Below, piece after piece: positions 23,409-31,353 of a stretch of 37,901 nucleotides of DNA; position 1 is the stretch's first letter, and every line of letters starts with the position of its first letter. Position numbers and translations under genes: made by a program. The notes below the pieces were generated by a model, which saw only the letters and a program-made list of their open reading frames with translations, had not been told where the DNA came from and ran no database searches. The stretch is from Actinomycetota bacterium (GTDB lineage Bacteria; Actinomycetota; Coriobacteriia; Anaerosomatales; UBA912), in the NCBI GenBank assembly GCA_023488435.1, contig JAMDCK010000020.1, positions 1 through 37,901 of the forward strand. Direction: 5' to 3'.

Positions 23409-24683
23409 ATGCTGGATGCCAGATTCGTGCGTCAGAATGCCGAGCTCGTGCGGCAGGCGCTCCGTGATCGCGGCTCGGATTGGGATCTGGACCGGTACAT
23501 CGAGCTCGATACAGTCCGCCGTGAGCTGCTAGCCGAGCTCGAAGCCGCTCAGGCTCGCCGAAACACCGACTCGAAGGCCATCGGCGGGCTGATGAAGGAA
23601 GGCCGACGCGAGGAAGCGGAAGCCCTGAAGGCCGAGGTGCACTCGGTCAACGAGACCATCGCAACGACCGAGGCCTCGCTCGCGAAGATCGACGGCGTGG
23701 TCCAAGAGATGATGCTCACAATCCCGAACCTCCCCGACGCAAGTGTTCCCGTCGGCGCAAATGAGCAGGACAACGTTGAGGTCCGACGCTGGGGTACTCC
23801 GCCAGAGTTCGATTTCGAGCACAAGGCCCACTGGGATCTCGGTCCCGGGCTCGGCATCGTGGACTTCGAGAGGGGCGTGAAGCTCGCGAAATCGCGCTTC
23901 GTGGTTCTCGGCAGGGATGGCGCGCGGCTGAATAGGGCGCTCATCAACTTCATGCTCGACACCCATGGCGGTCGCGGCTACACCGAGTGGTCGGTGCCGG
24001 CGATGGCCAACACCGAGACGCTCACGGGGACGGGCAACCTCCCCAAGTTCGAGGACGACCTCTTCGCCGCTGGGGAGGGCCTCTATCTGATTCCGACCGC
24101 GGAGGTGCAGCTCACCAACTTGCATCGCGCCGAAGTGCTCGATGCAAGCGATCTGCCGCTTGACTACACCGCTTACACGCCGTGCTTCCGCGAAGAGGCC
24201 GGTGCCGCTGGCCGAGACACCCGCGGGATGATTCGCGTGCATCAGTTCGACAAGGTTGAGCTGGTCAAGTTCGCGACCCCTGAGGCCAGCTTCGGCGAGC
24301 TCGAGAAGATGGTGGCCGACGCCGAGAACATCCTTCAGCAGTTGGGCCTAGCGTACCGGGTAATCACCCTGTGCACGGGCGACATGGGATTCGCCGCCGC
24401 AAAGACTTACGACATCGAGGTGTGGCTGCCAAGCTACTCCGGGTATAAGGAGATATCGAGCTGCAGCAACTGCACCGACTTCCAGGCCCGCAGGGCGGCT
24501 ATCAAGTACCGCAGCCCCAAGGAGTTCGGCGGTAGTCGGTTCGTGCACACACTGAACGGAAGTGGCCTGGCGGTCGGCAGGACACTGGTGGCGATCTTGG
24601 AGAACTATCAGCAGGCCGACGGGACCGTGGTGGTGCCCGAGGTGTTGCGTCCGTACATGGGAGGGCAAGAGGTAATCCAGTAG
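23409..24683 (+). CDS. serS: Serine–tRNA ligase
   Basis: A 424-residue class II aminoacyl-tRNA synthetase charging tRNA-Ser. The N-terminal coiled-coil arm that grips the tRNA-Ser variable arm spans about residues 30-100. Catalytic motif 2 is [21 protein letters not shown] and motif 3 is [31 protein letters not shown] is the usual serine-site signature. ATG 23409 follows GGAGG at six bases; a frame extension upstream is not family-like. Two tRNA-Ser genes lie about 3-4 kb downstream. The Zwf–Gnd fusion follows after 12 bases and is probably co-transcribed. Confidence 0.97.
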
Positions 24684-24695
24684 GAAGGGGCTCGG

Positions 24696-27065
24696 ATGAC
24701 ACCCTCGGCTAGCGACCCTACGATCCTGGTGATCTTCGGAACCACGGGGGATTTGATGGGACGCAAGATCACCCCGGCGCTCTACTACCTTGCCAGCAAA
24801 GACGCCCTACCCGAACGCTTCCAAGTAGTGGGGCACTCGCGTCGGGCCTGGTCCGATGAGGACCTGCGCGGTCATGTGCGGTCGATCCTCAAGCACAGTC
24901 AGATTGCCTCGGCAGACGACCCCGCGCCGGCTGAGGGGTTCCTCGACATGTTCACCTACTCGGTGGGCGAATTCAACGACACGCAAGGGTACCGCGGACT
25001 CGCCGAACACCTCGCGAGAATCGACGAGGAGTGGGGCGTCTGCGCGAACAAGCTCTTCTACCTGGCTGTCCCGCCCGAGCACTACGCCACGATCCTCAAG
25101 CATCTCGCCGAAGGGGGACTCACCGGAACGTGCGGTCAGGGTGGCGGTTGGACGAGGGTGCTGGTGGAGAAGCCGTTCGGGCACGATGCAGAGACTTCGG
25201 CGATGCTCGACGAGACGCTGGGCGAGCTTTTTGCCGAGGAGCAGATATATCGCATCGATCACTACCTCGCCAAGGAGATGCTGCAAGGCATCCTGAACTT
25301 CCGGTTCGCGAACAACCTGTTGGAGACGAGCTGGGATCGCTCCGCAATCGAGTCCATCGAGGTCGTACTGCACGAGACGCTGGGCGTCGAGCATCGCGGG
25401 TGGTTCTACGACGGGGTCGGAGCACTGCGCGATGTTGGGCAGAATCATCTGCTACAGATGCTGGCGCTAATCACGATGGAGCAGCCGGAGTCCTGTACCG
25501 CCGCTGCAATTCGTGACTCTCGCGCAAAGGCGGTGCGCGATGTGTTGCGCCCGATGACGGTCGAGCAGGTGGCCCTGAACACCTACCGCGCGCAGTACGA
25601 CGGGTACAAACAGATTGAGGGAGTGGATTGCTTCAGCGAGACGGAGACGTTCTTCCGGCTTCGCACCACGATGCGCGGTTCCCGCTGGGCGGGCGTGCCG
25701 GTCGTCTTCGAGAGCGGCAAGCGCCTCGCCGAAGTGCGCAAGGAGATAGTAGTCACCTTCCGCCATCCCGATCCTTGCATCTGCGACGAGGACTCCCACC
25801 ACAAGAACCAGGTGATATTCACGCTGGATCCATCGGACACGATAAAGATCGTCTTCTGGGCCAAGAAGCCCGGCTTCGATCGCGAAGTCGAGCGGCGAGA
25901 GTTCACTTTCTTCCTCTACGAGAAGGAAGCCAAGATCCAGTACGTCGAGGAGTACGCGAAGTTGCTGCTAGACGCTATCCGTGGGGACCAGACGCTGTTC
26001 CTCTCCACGGATGAGACGCTCGCGATGTGGGAGTTCGTCGACCCGATCACGCGAGCGTGGGCCGACGAGGTCACGCCTCTGCACACTTACCCGCCGGATA
26101 CGCTGCGTGCGCCCGAGCAAGCCATCGAGGCGCTGGCGGCAACGCCGAAGTGCGGACAAGTCGGCGTGGTCGGGCTGGGCAAGATGGGTGCGGGCCTCGC
26201 ACTCAACCTGCTCGATCACGGCTGGTGCGTGACCGGTTACAACCGTACCGCCGAGAAGGCGCTGGCCCTGGAACCCGCCGGTCTGGTCGCGGCTGCCTCA
26301 CTGGCCGAGCTCGTTGAGACGCTGCCTCGGCCTCGGGCCGTCTGGGTCATGCTCACGGCCGGCGCCGCAGTGGATGGCGTGCTCTTCGGCGGGGTTGACG
26401 GGCAACCGGCGCTCATCGACCTGCTCGAGGAAGGCGATGTAGTAATCGACGGCGGCAACTCGTACTTCAAGGACGCTGCCGTCCGAGCCGAGCGACTAGC
26501 CGAGCGCGGGATACGCTTCCTGGATTGCGGAACCAGCGGCGGACCTGGCGGCGCCCGTAACGGCGCGTGCCTCATGATCGGCGGCAGGCGCGAGGACTTC
26601 GAGGGACTGGAGCCGATGTTCGCCGACGTCGCGCGCATCGACGGGTACCGGTTCTTCGAGGGCCATGGCGCGGGCCACTTCGTGAAAATGGTGCACAACG
26701 GCATCGAGTACGGCATGATGCAAGCGATCGCCGAGGGATTCCAGTTGATGCGCGCCTCGGACTTCGAGCTCGATCTGTCGCAGGTCGCCGAGGTCTACCA
26801 GCGTGGCAGCGTCATCGAGTCGCGGCTCATCGGCTGGCTGCAAGACGCCTTCGTGGAGCTGGGAGATTCGCTTGACGGAGTCAGCGGCATCGTGCGGCAT
26901 ACCGGCGAGGCCGAGTGGACCGTCCGCACCGCCGAGGAGATGGGGCTCGAAGCGCGAATCATCGCTGGAGCGCTGGAGTTCCGGGTCGAGTCGGAGCGCA
27001 ATCCGAGCTACGCTGGGCAGGTACTCAGCGCGCTTCGCAACCGCTTCGGCGGGCACGCGATGTAG
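24696..27065 (+). CDS. Glucose-6-phosphate dehydrogenase – 6-phosphogluconate dehydrogenase fusion
   Basis: One 789-residue frame contains two oxidative pentose-phosphate enzymes. Residues 1 to about 475 are glucose-6-phosphate dehydrogenase (Zwf), with the nucleotide motif FGTTGDLMGRK near 14-24, VEKPFGHD, and the catalytic RIDHYLAKEM near 186-195. Residues from about 487 to the end are a short-type decarboxylating 6-phosphogluconate dehydrogenase (Gnd), with VGLGKMGAG, YNRT (suggesting NADP), the substrate loop GTSGGPGGARNG and the catalytic Lys/Asn in FVKMVHNG. The linker is only about 12 residues. The 6-phosphogluconolactonase between these steps is absent, so lactone opening must be spontaneous or encoded elsewhere. 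The ATG follows GAAGGGG. No repeat or frameshift marks the join. Product: ribulose 5-phosphate, CO2 and two reduced cofactors. Confidence 0.95.
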   Translation: MTPSASDPTILVIFGTTGDLMGRKITPALYYLASKDALPERFQVVGHSRRAWSDEDLRGHVRSILKHSQIASADDPAPAEGFLDMFTYSVGEFNDTQGYRGLAEHLARIDEEWGVCANKLFYLAVPPEHYATILKHLAEGGLTGTCGQGGGWTRVLVEKPFGHDAETSAMLDETLGELFAEEQIYRIDHYLAKEMLQGILNFRFANNLLETSWDRSAIESIEVVLHETLGVEHRGWFYDGVGALRDVGQNHLLQMLALITMEQPESCTAAAIRDSRAKAVRDVLRPMTVEQVALNTYRAQYDGYKQIEGVDCFSETETFFRLRTTMRGSRWAGVPVVFESGKRLAEVRKEIVVTFRHPDPCICDEDSHHKNQVIFTLDPSDTIKIVFWAKKPGFDREVERREFTFFLYEKEAKIQYVEEYAKLLLDAIRGDQTLFLSTDETLAMWEFVDPITRAWADEVTPLHTYPPDTLRAPEQAIEALAATPKCGQVGVVGLGKMGAGLALNLLDHGWCVTGYNRTAEKALALEPAGLVAAASLAELVETLPRPRAVWVMLTAGAAVDGVLFGGVDGQPALIDLLEEGDVVIDGGNSYFKDAAVRAERLAERGIRFLDCGTSGGPGGARNGACLMIGGRREDFEGLEPMFADVARIDGYRFFEGHGAGHFVKMVHNGIEYGMMQAIAEGFQLMRASDFELDLSQVAEVYQRGSVIESRLIGWLQDAFVELGDSLDGVSGIVRHTGEAEWTVRTAEEMGLEARIIAGALEFRVESERNPSYAGQVLSALRNRFGGHAM

Positions 27066-27070
27066 CTTTG

Positions 27071-27147
27071 TGGTGCGCCCTGAGAGATTCGAACTCCCGA
27101 CCTTCTGATTCGTAGTCAGACGCTCTATCCGGCTGAGCTAAGGGCGC
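27071..27147 (-). tRNA. tRNA-Arg (anticodon ACG)
   Basis: A complete 77-base tRNA with encoded CCA. The acceptor stem GCGCCCT/AGGGCGC is perfect. The anticodon arm TCTGA-CTACGAA-TCAGA gives ACG, and the T-arm contains GGTTCGAATC-type sequence (GTTCGAATC). A34 should be edited to inosine by TadA, encoded about 1 kb away, so that it can read CGU, CGC and CGA. It lies 55 bases after tRNA-Ser(GCT) in the same direction and is likely processed from the same transcript. Confidence 0.97.
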
Positions 27148-27202
27148 GCTTGCCCGATGTGGGCTTGGTAATCCTGCCATTCGCAGGCGGTTTTAGTCAA
27201 GT

Positions 27203-27295
27203 GGCGGAGAGTGAGGGATTCGAACCCTCGAAGAGGCTATAAACCCCTTACTCGCTTAGCAGGCGAGCGCCTTCAGCCGACTCGGCCAACTCTCC
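27203..27295 (-). tRNA. tRNA-Ser (anticodon GCT)
   Basis: A class II tRNA of 93 bases with encoded CCA and discriminator G. The acceptor stem GGAGAGT pairs with ACTCTCC. The anticodon arm CTCGC-CTGCTAA-GCGAG gives GCT (reads AGC and AGU). A long variable arm and GGTTCGAATCC T-arm are present. It is charged by the SerS encoded upstream. It is the first of two tRNAs in a minus-strand pair with tRNA-Arg. Confidence 0.97.
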
Positions 27296-27327
27296 GTACA
27301 GCGCCGACAAGGCGGCGAAGCGTCGAT

Positions 27328-27333
27328 ATTGTA
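27328..27333 (-). promoter_or_regulatory. Putative -10 element for the tRNA-Ser/tRNA-Arg pair
   Basis: On the minus strand TACAAT matches the -10 consensus at five of six positions and lies about 32 bases before the tRNA-Ser 5' end. The -35 region (around CCGATG) is poor. A start near 27321 would give a short leader removed by RNase P. Confidence 0.38.
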
Positions 27334-27361
27334 GCATGTTGCAGCCACGTCATCGGAAGTC

Positions 27362-27383
27362 GGTTCGAATCGATTCTCGAACC
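27362..27383 (-). terminator. Hairpin downstream of the mgtE-like gene (weak)
   Basis: GGTTCGA (27362-27368) and TCGAACC (27377-27383) form a perfect seven-base-pair stem about 20 bases after the stop of the minus-strand MgtE-like gene. The centre also contains the palindrome GAATCGATTC. No U-tract follows, so intrinsic termination is doubtful. Confidence 0.25.
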
Positions 27384-27403
27384 TGCCGAAGGGGCGGGTC
27401 GCA

Positions 27404-27961
27404 TCACAAGCGGAACAGCATCGTTGCCGCGACTGCGAAATACACCAGCAGGCTCAGGTTGTCGGTCAAGGCGGTGGTGAGCTCGTCGGTGCCGACCGCC
27501 GGATCTCGGCGCAGCAGGGAGAAGATCACCGGCATCATCATCCCGATGACCACCGCCATCAGCCCGTTGATGACCAGAGTGCTCCCGACCACGACAGCCA
27601 ACTCGATATCCCTGAACCACAAGTAGGCGAACAGACCCAGCGCCGCGCCGGCGATCGCGCCCAACGACAGCCCGACGAGGATCTCCTTGAGGAGGATGCG
27701 GGACAGCTTGAGGCGACCCAGCGCGAGCTCCCGGACGAAAAGCGCCACCGTCTCGGTGCCGATCGCGCCACTCATGTACACGATCACCGGGATGAACAGC
27801 ACGAGTTCGACCTTCGCCGAGAAAGCCTCCTCGTACGCCTGGCCGATGAAGATCATGACGATTCCCGCGGCGACCGCCAACAGAATCCACGGCGCCCGGC
27901 GCCTGACCTCGCTACCGAAGTGGGCTTGAGCGATGTTCAGCTCGGCCTTTGGTTCTTGCAT
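27404..27961 (-). CDS. MgtE-type divalent cation transporter, membrane domain only
   Basis: A 185-residue polytopic protein matching the C-terminal membrane domain of MgtE/SLC41 magnesium channels. It has about five helices: RRAPWILLAVAAGIVMIFIG, the segment FIPVIVYMSGAIGTETVALFVRELALG, and RRDPAVGTDELTTALTDNLSLLVYF, whose acidic residues line the ion path in MgtE. The usual cytosolic N domain and paired CBS domains that gate full-length MgtE (about 450 residues) are missing. The ATG has its own GGGAG site six bases upstream, so this looks like a natural stand-alone form rather than a fragment. It would probably dimerise. It lies 36 bases after tRNA-Ser(TGA) in the same direction. Magnesium is the likely ion, by family. 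Confidence 0.88.
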   Translation of the reverse strand: MQEPKAELNIAQAHFGSEVRRRAPWILLAVAAGIVMIFIGQAYEEAFSAKVELVLFIPVIVYMSGAIGTETVALFVRELALGRLKLSRILLKEILVGLSLGAIAGAALGLFAYLWFRDIELAVVVGSTLVINGLMAVVIGMMMPVIFSLLRRDPAVGTDELTTALTDNLSLLVYFAVAATMLFRL

Positions 27962-27997
27962 CGCGGCTCCCGTGTCACGTCCTCAGTGCCATGCGGC

Positions 27998-28085
27998 TGG
28001 CGGAGGGGGTGGGATTCGAACCCACGGACCCTTGCGGGTCAACGGTTTTCAAGACCGTCGCAATCGTCCACTCTGCCACCCCTCC
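27998..28085 (-). tRNA. tRNA-Ser (anticodon TGA)
   Basis: A class II tRNA of 88 bases with encoded CCA and discriminator G. The acceptor stem GGAGGGG pairs with CCCCTCC. The anticodon arm ACGGT-CTTGAAA-ACCGT gives TGA (reads UCA, UCG, and by wobble UCU). A long variable arm GACCCGCAAGGGTC and GGTTCGAATCC T-arm are present. It is divergent from tadA. Confidence 0.97.
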
Positions 28086-28658: not shown

Positions 28659-29360
28659 TCAGGCTAGAATCTCTGCTACGCGTCCGCGTATCGATGTTTC
28701 GAACTTTACCCAAGAGAGATCACGGGCTGGTTCCTGAATACCCTCTACGGTACCTTCCCCGTTGCCAGTAACGAACCACGCCGCGTTGTATAAGCGTTGC
28801 AGGACTAGTCGCCGGCACATGAGGATCGCCCGGTCTTGGTACGAGGAGTCGCTGAACTCCGGATCCACTGGGAAATGCGTTTGGCGTACTCTCACGGGGG
28901 ATCGCGAAGAAGGCTCATCCTGCATGAGAAAAACGTATCCCAGCCATGGAGGTTTTACTCCCAATAGTCCCTTTTCGGCGGCCTCCAGAAGATCAGTGGC
29001 ATTTCCCAGCGCCTCCTCGGCGCGATTGTTCATGTTGTTGCCATAGCTGCCTAGAATAGACTTGAACTCCACAGCTACAACCACAGTCCCGTCGTGGACA
29101 GCGACAACATCCCACTTCTTCTCTGGCCTGTAGTATCCAGGCAGTTCCACACCGCGATCCTTGTGGACACTGGACTGCGGCAATCCCGCATCGACAAGGA
29201 CTTTTTCTATAAGTTGAGCTAAGGAATCAAGGTGTTTTCCGCTTGTCACTCCCGCGCGCAAACCGGGATCCGTGCTTCCTCGCATGAGTGCCCTATTCGC
29301 GGCATCCGTTCGCATTTTCCAGCAACTAGCCGCTGCCTCGCGATAATCCTCTAAGGGCAC
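28659..29360 (-). CDS. XhoI/PaeR7I-family type II restriction endonuclease
   Basis: A 233-residue endonuclease close in size to PaeR7I. The family segment FKSILGSYGNNMNNRAEEAL is well conserved. The PD-(D/E)xK active site appears as Asp84 in KKWDVV with Glu98 and Lys100 in VEFKS. PaeR7I and XhoI cut CTCGAG; the same specificity is inferred, not shown. GTG 29360 follows the methyltransferase stop by eight bases, with AGGAG overlapping that stop, so the pair is one operon with the methyltransferase first. The gene looks intact although the methyltransferase reading frame is broken. CTCGAG is common in this window (for example 853, 2006, 5721, 5748), so loss of methylation would be lethal if the nuclease is active. 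Confidence 0.88.
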   Translation of the reverse strand: MPLEDYREAAASCWKMRTDAANRALMRGSTDPGLRAGVTSGKHLDSLAQLIEKVLVDAGLPQSSVHKDRGVELPGYYRPEKKWDVVAVHDGTVVVAVEFKSILGSYGNNMNNRAEEALGNATDLLEAAEKGLLGVKPPWLGYVFLMQDEPSSRSPVRVRQTHFPVDPEFSDSSYQDRAILMCRRLVLQRLYNAAWFVTGNGEGTVEGIQEPARDLSWVKFETSIRGRVAEILA

Positions 29361-29368
29361 GGTGTCTC

Positions 29369-31353
29369 CTAGTCCGGGATTCTATCAATCCCATAAGCCA
29401 GTAGGGCTGCAGCTGTGGCTGCTTCGACGTCGCGGTTGTTGAATGCATCTATAAGAGCTGTTGCAACCTCCGCTGGGATGCCGGCCGGATCTGGAACTCT
29501 GATCCGTCTGAGGTACTGAGCTTGGAATCTTAGCGTTCCGCCCCGCATTCGTACCGCATATGAAGCGATGAAGAACTCAGCGACACGCGACAGTAGCAAG
29601 CCGCCAAGGACCCGAACGTCCCAGCTACCGGGCTCAATCCAATAGAGATTGTGGTGTGGGTAGTACGCGCCTTCGTCAAGAACTGGAGCGATGGTCGTCT
29701 TCATATCAGGAAGAAGCAGCTTGTGCTTGCGCTGAAGATCAGGGTTCACCTTGTCGATCGTTCTGTACCAGGCCCCATTGCTCTTCTTGGCTACGTGGCG
29801 ACTTCGGAGTTGTTCCGAATGCGTGGTCAGGTATGCTGCCAACCTAGGGTAGCCTTCTAAGCTGACGAGAGAGCCTTGCGTGTCCCAAGGATTCACCAAC
29901 CAGCTCCCCTGCCAGACAACTCGCCCGCTGGAGATATCTGTAGTTTTCAACAGCGGCAGCAGACGGCTTTCTTCCACGAGTGATGCGTCGTCCGTAACGA
30001 ACACAGCATCGGCACCTGTTGCGATGCCGATTCCAACCCTGGCACCCGTGTTCTCAAGAAGAGGCAGCCGGTCTTCTAAGTCTCGCAGGAAGGCAATCCT
30101 CTCGGGCGATCCGGTCGGCCATGAAGTTTCGGTTCGAAACCAGTCTTCGAGGACCGCTGCCGAGAAATCCCGATCCCGTACTGATCCGGAGCCATTAGCG
30201 GCCCATTGCTCCAGTCGGGTCGAGGCCTCCCCATTGAAAGTTTGGTGCGCGACTGCATACCGCACAGGCCCTTGGGTGCCACGGCCGATGAGAGTCACGG
30301 CAGGATAGGCACTCACTTCTTCAGCAAAAGCGTCCACGCCGTGCATCTCGTACACCGCGCGGACGTCGTAGTCTTCGGGATGCCGATTCCAACCCTGGCA
30401 CCCGTGTTCTCAAGAAGAGGCAGCCGGTCTTCTAAGTCTCGCAGGAAGGCAATCCTCTCGGGCGATCCGGTCGGCCATGAAGTTTCGGTTCGAAACCAGT
30501 CTTCGAGGACCGCTGCCGAGAAATCCCGATCCCGTACTGATCCGGAGCCATTAGCGGCCCATTGCTCCAGTCGGGTCGAGGCCTCCCCATTGAAAGTTTG
30601 GTGCGCGACTGCATACCGCACAGGCCCTTGGGTGCCACGGCCGATGAGAGTCACGGCAGGATAGGCACTCACTTCTTCAGCAAAAGCGTCCACGCCGTGC
30701 ATCTCGTACACCGCGCGGACGTCGTAGTCTTCGGAAACCATTTGTCGCAGACGCTTCCCGTAGGCGTTGCGCATCCATCGATCGGCGCAGATGAAACAGA
30801 GTACCCCGTTCGGCTTGAGTGAGCGAAGACCGATCTCGTAAAAGGCGACATAGATGTCGCTGCCATCGGTCATCGTGTGACATTTCTCGACGTATGCCGA
30901 TCGTAGGTCGCGGGGAATCGACTCAGCCCTGATGTAAGGTGGATTGCCGACCACTAAGTCTGCGTTTTCGTTCTCTGAGCCTCTAAGTAGATAGTCTTCA
31001 CATGAGACCCAGCACTCGGCGAGTTCAGCGGCCGTTCGTTCGGTCCATCCGTCTTCAAGCAGCCAGCGGGTTACCCCCATCCTGCATGTTGCCACATGTT
31101 CCGGCTGCAAATCGAACGCCCGGATGGCCGGTCGTGCATCCAGGATGTCTATGCCCCAAGTCCTGCATGACTTGGACAGCCGTTCGACAATCGGCAGGAG
31201 AAAAGCCCCATCTCCGCACGAAGGCTCCACCACGACACGCTGTGCCAGGTTCTCGTCTGGCGTATAGCCACAGAGATCCAGCATGAAGTCGACCATCCAT
31301 GGCTTCGTAAAGACAGCCCCATGTTCTTTGACACGCTCCAACGATGCCTCCAT
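29369..31353 (-). pseudogene. Type II N6-adenine DNA methyltransferase (PaeR7I/XhoI type), frame broken by a tandem duplication
   Basis: The cognate methyltransferase. The N-terminal part (frame 30313-31353) has the SAM motif VVEPSCGDGAFLLP (about 41-54) and the catalytic NPPY at 137-140. The C-terminal part (frame 29369-30355) holds the target-recognition region. An exact 356-bp tandem duplication (30023-30734) shifts the frame: after VGIGI the first frame reads into 21 unrelated residues and stops. Removing one copy joins the parts perfectly into 542 residues, close to M.PaeR7I length. As written, no full protein can be made. The likeliest explanations are an assembly duplication (gene really intact) or a very recent inactivation. 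It lies upstream of, and is co-directional with, the endonuclease gene. Confidence 0.88.
30023..30734. repeat. Exact 356-bp tandem duplication inside the methyltransferase gene
   Basis: Bases 30023-30378 and 30379-30734 are identical. The match ends exactly at the unit length on both sides, so the junction carries no microhomology. 356 is not a multiple of three, which breaks the reading frame. The pattern repeats that of the 191-bp duplication at 6511-6892 and is what an unmerged contig overlap would produce. Confidence 0.97.

Follow-up and report, generated by a model that had tools for sequence, protein, structure and literature searches.

A Fused Glucose-6-Phosphate and 6-Phosphogluconate Dehydrogenase Gene in the Anaerosomatales, an Order with No DevB-Type 6-Phosphogluconolactonase Found

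Organization of the Fusion Gene and Its Neighborhood

The window, a stretch of 37,901 nucleotides from a metagenome-assembled genome (MAG) of the actinomycetotal order Anaerosomatales, carries a zwf–gnd fusion gene at 24696–27065 on the forward strand, which is a single ATG-initiated open reading frame encoding 789 amino acids plus a stop, with no internal stops. The glucose-6-phosphate dehydrogenase (G6PDH) part (residues 8–477; 24717–26126, +) matched TIGR00871 nearly end to end (437.8 bits against a cut-off of 400.6; positions 2–473 of 486 in the profile) and contained the catalytic Asp-His dyad, His, and Lys of the DHYxxK, NH, and GK motifs (D188, H189, K193, H251, and K342), together with R49/R50 in the NADP loop. 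The short-type 6-phosphogluconate dehydrogenase (6PGDH) part (residues 488–789; 26157–27062, +) was likewise matched over its full length, residues 488–788 scoring 331.9 bits with NF007161 (cut-off 271) and 305.7 bits with TIGR00872 (cut-off 297.2). It contained GLGKMG, the NRT NADP motif, and the catalytic residues of SGG (S614-G615-G616) and KxxHN (K664, H667, and N668), as well as E671 and the C-terminal R781 and H787. The Pfam domains followed one another in the order G6PD_N (PF00479), G6PD_C (PF02781), NAD_binding_2, and 6PGD; Pfam recognised nothing resembling a lactonase domain in the protein.

Both enzymes are thus encoded in one unbroken frame, and the open reading frame and the profile matches agreed with the original prediction of a complete G6PDH running uninterrupted into a complete short-type 6PGDH; the sequence motifs that it had quoted were all present, and the physical linkage of the two dehydrogenases that it had proposed holds, as linkage only. 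The short variable linker lies in the gap between the domain matches, at about residues 478–487 (26127–26156, +). Its estimated length of about 12 residues was fair, since approximately 7–18 residues separate the recognised domains, and an alignment of 50 fused sequences showed that the linker is variable in sequence and differs in length by a few residues.

Directly upstream lies serS (23409–24683, +), encoding a seryl-tRNA synthetase with the Pfam domains tRNA-synt_2b and Seryl_tRNA_N. The 12-nt gap between the serS stop and the fusion ATG (24684–24695, +) holds AGGAAGGGG, which from its position just before the start codon is likely to be a ribosome-binding site. The two genes are probably co-transcribed, from which we draw no functional link. 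Directly downstream, and convergent with the fusion gene, a tRNA cluster (Arg-ACG, Ser-GCT, and Ser-TGA; 27071–28085, −) surrounds an MgtE-like transporter gene. Farther along, an XhoI-family restriction endonuclease gene (28659–30355, −; PF04555, 187 bits) stands beside a gene for a TaqI_C-like specificity-domain protein, and the two form a probable restriction-modification locus. A tRNA-Asp called by ARAGORN at 29046–29143, inside the endonuclease gene, is probably false.

Authenticity and Distribution of the Fusion

The window genome is a 1.70-Mb MAG of 62 contigs with 96% completeness, and its fragmentation is the point in favor of an assembly or binning artefact that joined two genes. The evidence makes such an artefact exceedingly improbable. 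A sister species (L024) carried the same fusion with 95% amino-acid identity, and the comparison of the two gave dN/dS ratios of 0.066 for the G6PDH part and 0.082 for the 6PGDH part, with 0.32 across the linker region (residues 455–487); these values indicate that strong purifying selection is acting on both halves. The GC content at third codon positions remained steady over the junction (0.78–0.88) with the frame unchanged. In addition, the fusion was present in G014, a genome assembled as a single contig of 1,838,614 bp (locus G+C content of 67.7%). Chance and assembly error were excluded because the same architecture occurred in 46 genomes of the order.

We determined the distribution of the fusion among 61 genomes of the order. 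G6PDH was found in 52 of them, and a 6PGDH match above the cut-off lay in the same open frame in 46; the shorter frames whose sequence was read stopped at contig ends. Nine of the 61 genomes gave no G6PDH match, so that some members of the order may manage without the function. The fused protein was the sole G6PDH of the window genome, and no other form of the enzyme was found in the order; a split zwf and gnd arrangement was observed in none of the 46 sampled genomes with an uncut locus. The possibility, raised with the original prediction, that the close relatives would all have zwf and gnd as distinct genes here was therefore not borne out, since wherever a relative from the order had a locus uncut by a contig end, its two genes were fused. 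An extra stand-alone 6PGDH was found once, in G015.

In a class-wide sample, G6PDH was found in 55 of 300 genomes, every one from this order, and in none of the 233 sampled genomes from other orders of the class. Across the phylum (297 genomes), no fusion was observed among the 20 longest G6PDH frames read, among the matches listed. A long frame alone was rejected as a sign of fusion in high-GC genomes, since these 20 long-frame actinomycetotal loci included no fused gene. The 1,079-residue frame of G346 (L198) was also rejected as a fusion; its N-terminus appeared antisense-like, and gnd was separate.

Fusions in Patescibacteria and the Evolution of the Gene

Beyond the order, verified fusions were found in at least 13 of the 380 Patescibacteria genomes surveyed. 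The fused records (L035–L037, L039, and L041) come from Wolfebacteria, Doudnabacteria, Magasanikbacteria, Parcubacteria, and others, and two further records (L034 and L038) are less certain. In many other Patescibacteria, zwf and then gnd are adjacent as two frames. Such adjacent pairs, which were also seen in Paenibacillus and Anoxybacillus, share the gene order of the fusion but encode two polypeptides in separate frames rather than one chain, and a PF01182 (pgl-type) protein is encoded in addition by many of the Patescibacteria genomes with such pairs. The adjacent pair is likely to be the ancestral arrangement. Other combinations were observed in Parcubacteria: one MAG (G310) carried both a fused zwf–gnd gene (L039) and an unfused zwf and gnd pair (L060), and in another a short-type 6PGDH was followed by a divergent lactonase domain (44 bits with TIGR01198) in one frame of 547 residues (L055: 7438–9078, +), which forms a gnd–pgl fusion beside zwf.

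We addressed the origin of the fusion with quick maximum-likelihood tree searches, one per half, in which support was moderate in places. The sequences of the order formed one clade in both the G6PDH tree (SH-aLRT 98) and the 6PGDH tree (SH-aLRT 95), and in both this clade was nested within a mostly patescibacterial group, beside fused sequences; L032 and L033 matched sequences of the order identically over both halves. The fused label changed six times on one tree and eight times on the second, and the AU test rejected a topology that unites all fused sequences in one clade (p-AU 8e-8). These results indicated that fusion arose repeatedly, was sometimes undone, or both. We accordingly set aside a single origin in which all fusions form one clade, although fission could also produce the pattern. 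We proposed that an adjacent zwf–gnd pair of the Patescibacteria type would have given rise to a fused gene, which would then have been transferred horizontally into the order. From the tree topology, the most likely course is that the gene was already fused when it passed from a source resembling Patescibacteria to the ancestor of the order, both the transfer and its direction being inferred. At the junction itself, a Met just before β-strand 1 of the 6PGDH part was observed in L006, L025, L028, L139, and L197 and was absent from the window protein; in those fused proteins it resembles the start codon that gnd would once have had as a separate gene.

Predicted Activity and Cofactor Use

The residues expected for catalysis were strongly conserved. 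D188, H189, K193, H251, and K342 of the G6PDH part were invariant among the 50 fused sequences, as were S614-G615-G616, K664, H667, N668, E671, R781, and H787 of the 6PGDH part (50/50). An AlphaFold2 model of the monomer (mean pLDDT 88.4; pTM 0.81) showed both halves well folded; its first part resembled the Leuconostoc G6PDH 1dpg (TM 0.89 by target length), and the closest solved structures to the gnd half were 6vpb, 10gw, and 8ihe. On the strength of these sequence and model features, both halves should be active, the N-terminal part predicted to convert glucose-6-phosphate to 6-phosphoglucono-δ-lactone and the C-terminal part to convert 6-phosphogluconate to ribulose-5-phosphate by oxidative decarboxylation.

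Each dehydrogenase step would reduce one molecule of pyridine nucleotide, and the product is most likely NADPH. For the G6PDH half, the NADP-loop arginines R49 (49/50 fused sequences) and R50 (46/50) suggest NADP. For the 6PGDH half, the NRT motif (N516-R517-T518) suggests the same cofactor, with Asn in 44 and Arg in 41 of the 50 fused sequences, so that some fused relatives may differ; NCBIfam models named NADP-dependent and NAD-dependent both matched this half. The characterised short-type 6PGDHs (NF007161/TIGR00872; 6vpb, 10gw, Mycobacterium tuberculosis Gnd2 8ihe, and 4e21) have approximately 300 residues and the same catalytic motifs as the gnd half, but they stand alone, whereas here the N-terminus continues from G6PDH. 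In addition, the cofactor loop here is the NADP-like NRT, whereas the NAD-dependent Gnd2 (8ihe) aligns without Asn-Arg-Thr.

As for the metabolic setting, the first cultured Anaerosomatales did not use sugars and were without glucokinase and phosphofructokinase; fructose-1,6-bisphosphatase was present, and the pentose phosphate pathway was described as incomplete (PMC9686372). In such largely gluconeogenic bacteria, the fusion would divert glucose-6-phosphate toward the formation of pentoses and NADPH. We infer a biosynthetic role for it, with gluconeogenic glucose-6-phosphate as the source of both products. In one genome (L128), the fusion is followed by a transketolase gene.

Absence of a Recognised Lactonase

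The reaction between the two dehydrogenase steps is ordinarily that of 6-phosphogluconolactonase, which the original prediction took the fusion to skip. No lactonase domain lay in the chain: among the 46 fused proteins scanned, none carried PF01182 or any extra domain, and solely G6PDH and 6PGDH domains were found. No added domain thus pointed to lactone opening in the space shared by the two halves, one of the routes offered with the original prediction. A search for pgl elsewhere in the window genome, as had been advised, gave no separate recognised lactonase. No genome of the order (0/61) had a pgl match to TIGR01198 above the cut-off, and a DevB-type lactonase was not found in the 61 genomes, whereas positive controls gave matches in the lactonase searches. 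PF01182 gave only marginal matches in the order; those of G042 and G040 were examined and rejected as lactonases, being NagB-like instead, and those of G054, G055, and G302 were similarly weak. In the window genome, no match was found to PF10282, or to the SGL-type PF08450 at E ≤ 1e-6; two strong SGL matches occurred in the order, both in G059. At 96% completeness, one gene absent from the window MAG means little, and it is the order-wide absence that carries weight. As the searches turned up no dedicated lactonase from the known families, the lactone would either hydrolyse spontaneously or be opened by a hydrolase that went unrecognised, and a lactonase of an unrecognised family may be present in these genomes. 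In the literature, the 6-phosphogluconolactone step is described as occurring spontaneously at least in part (PMC4470864), and Pgl of Staphylococcus aureus as the one enzyme of the oxidative branch that is not essential (PMC10399904); by contrast, Stover et al. state that the γ-lactone can accumulate when the lactonase is missing (PMC3148214).

We then compared fused and unfused lineages. Within Patescibacteria, PF01182 was found in 0 of the 13 verified fused genomes versus 59 of 89 genomes with unfused G6PDH (Fisher p = 3.9e-6). On the tree, the association of fusion with the lack of PF01182 was reduced to two independent well-supported pairs and was not significant when corrected for descent; it is therefore suggestive and not independent of phylogeny, and we rejected it as proof of compensation. 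Moreover, a fused genome outside the order, G305 (L034), encoded a genuine pgl, scoring 200 bits with TIGR01198, which shows that the fusion does not require the absence of pgl.

Possible Reasons for the Fusion

Loss of a stop codon between adjacent, co-transcribed genes may have joined the two enzymes as a neutral by-product, harmless and with 1:1 stoichiometry but no metabolic coupling, the lactone opening spontaneously. We consider this a serious possibility, with a little less than an even chance of being correct. It is consistent with the unfused close relatives, in which zwf and gnd stand next to each other in the order of the fusion, with the six to eight changes of the fused label and the rejection of one fused clade, and with the old-start-like Met kept at the junction of five fused proteins; the lack of any split locus among the 46 uncut loci of the order argues against it. 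Alternatively, the fusion may replace the lactonase, tethering, a channel, or a promiscuous site limiting the free lactone, which would explain why fused lineages are without pgl. The lack of any DevB-type lactonase found in the 61 genomes of the order and the patescibacterial contrast point this way, and the pTM of 0.81 for two large domains is compatible with a defined mutual arrangement. However, 30 of the 89 unfused Patescibacteria genomes are also without pgl, the association falls to two independent pairs after correction for descent, and L034 has both the fusion and a genuine pgl; furthermore, there is no extra domain and no conserved linker, and the AlphaFold2 model is of a monomer. 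We thus regard replacement as rather unlikely, and we hold as equally doubtful its strongest form, in which, in the order and several patescibacterial lineages, the lactone would be trapped or hydrolysed between the fused active sites and a three-step pathway completed in one polypeptide.

An unrecognised or non-homologous lactonase might also act in trans, and one candidate is a probably membrane-anchored neighbour with PEGA and β-propeller domains found in several families of the order. PF10282 and PF08450 matched these propeller neighbours weakly, and PF10282 lay within a few kilobases of the fusion in many genomes (e.g., G013–G015, G025, G029, G031, G046–G048, G050–G052, G056, G057, G059, and G060). 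However, no such PF10282 match was found in the window genome or its family, PEGA domains were present in three of the four propeller neighbours scanned with just one or two blades matching, and the neighbours lie on the strand opposite to the fusion, convergent with it (L115: 8220–9950; L117: 7764–9410; L124: 5682–7334; L126: 11221–12930). We therefore rejected these β-propeller, mostly PEGA-containing and probably membrane proteins as the lactonase, and lactone opening in trans along these lines appears improbable. Whatever joined the genes, our preferred reading of the gene product, which we consider probable, is a bifunctional enzyme that forms ribulose-5-phosphate together with two NADPH; the lactone in between would open by itself or be hydrolysed by an enzyme that went unrecognised.

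Relation to Known Fusions and Significance

Fusions of G6PDH with 6-phosphogluconolactonase are known as H6PD of animals, GluPho of Plasmodium, and the proteins of Giardia and Trichomonas. They likewise join G6PDH to another enzyme of the oxidative pentose phosphate pathway, but their partner is the lactonase, whereas here the partner is 6PGDH and the lactonase is the missing enzyme; with no PF01182 in the 46 fused proteins, the present fusion falls outside this group. The original prediction had called a direct G6PDH–6PGDH fusion unusual. Its rarity was partly right, but the fusion is not unique, having been published in PMC3148214 and PMC11237513. In the diatom Phaeodactylum tricornutum, the same two enzymes are in frame across 39 nucleotides (Stover et al. 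2011, PMC3148214); this case is eukaryotic and limited to a single species, its authors mention doubts over the gene model, and P. tricornutum possesses in addition a 6PGL and two 6PGDs that stand alone (PMC3148214). In prokaryotes, a G6pd–Pgd fusion was reported for a Diapherotrites (DPANN) MAG and 60 bacterial candidate-phyla assemblies (mSystems 2024, PMC11237513). It joins the same two enzymes and is given in one sentence, as cluster 1367 of an archaeal fusion survey; that passage mentions neither Actinomycetota nor Anaerosomatales, and neither domain order, lactonase absence, nor phylogeny. The candidate-phyla set of that passage very likely overlaps the patescibacterial fusions found here. 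The kind of fusion is thus already known, and novelty is limited; in the literature searched, no paper was found that described it in Actinomycetota, as the only form of an order, or in connection with a missing lactonase.

The affinity of the gene to Patescibacteria provides an example of probable inter-phylum transfer of a gene of core metabolism, and the fused enzyme could serve as a compact module for NADPH regeneration. It also appears that a whole order has a single fused protein, and no known lactonase, for its only oxidative pentose phosphate route. Cultured members of the Anaerosomatales exist, and the order offers a natural test of whether 6-phosphogluconolactonase is needed, or whether spontaneous opening or the coupling of the two dehydrogenases is enough.
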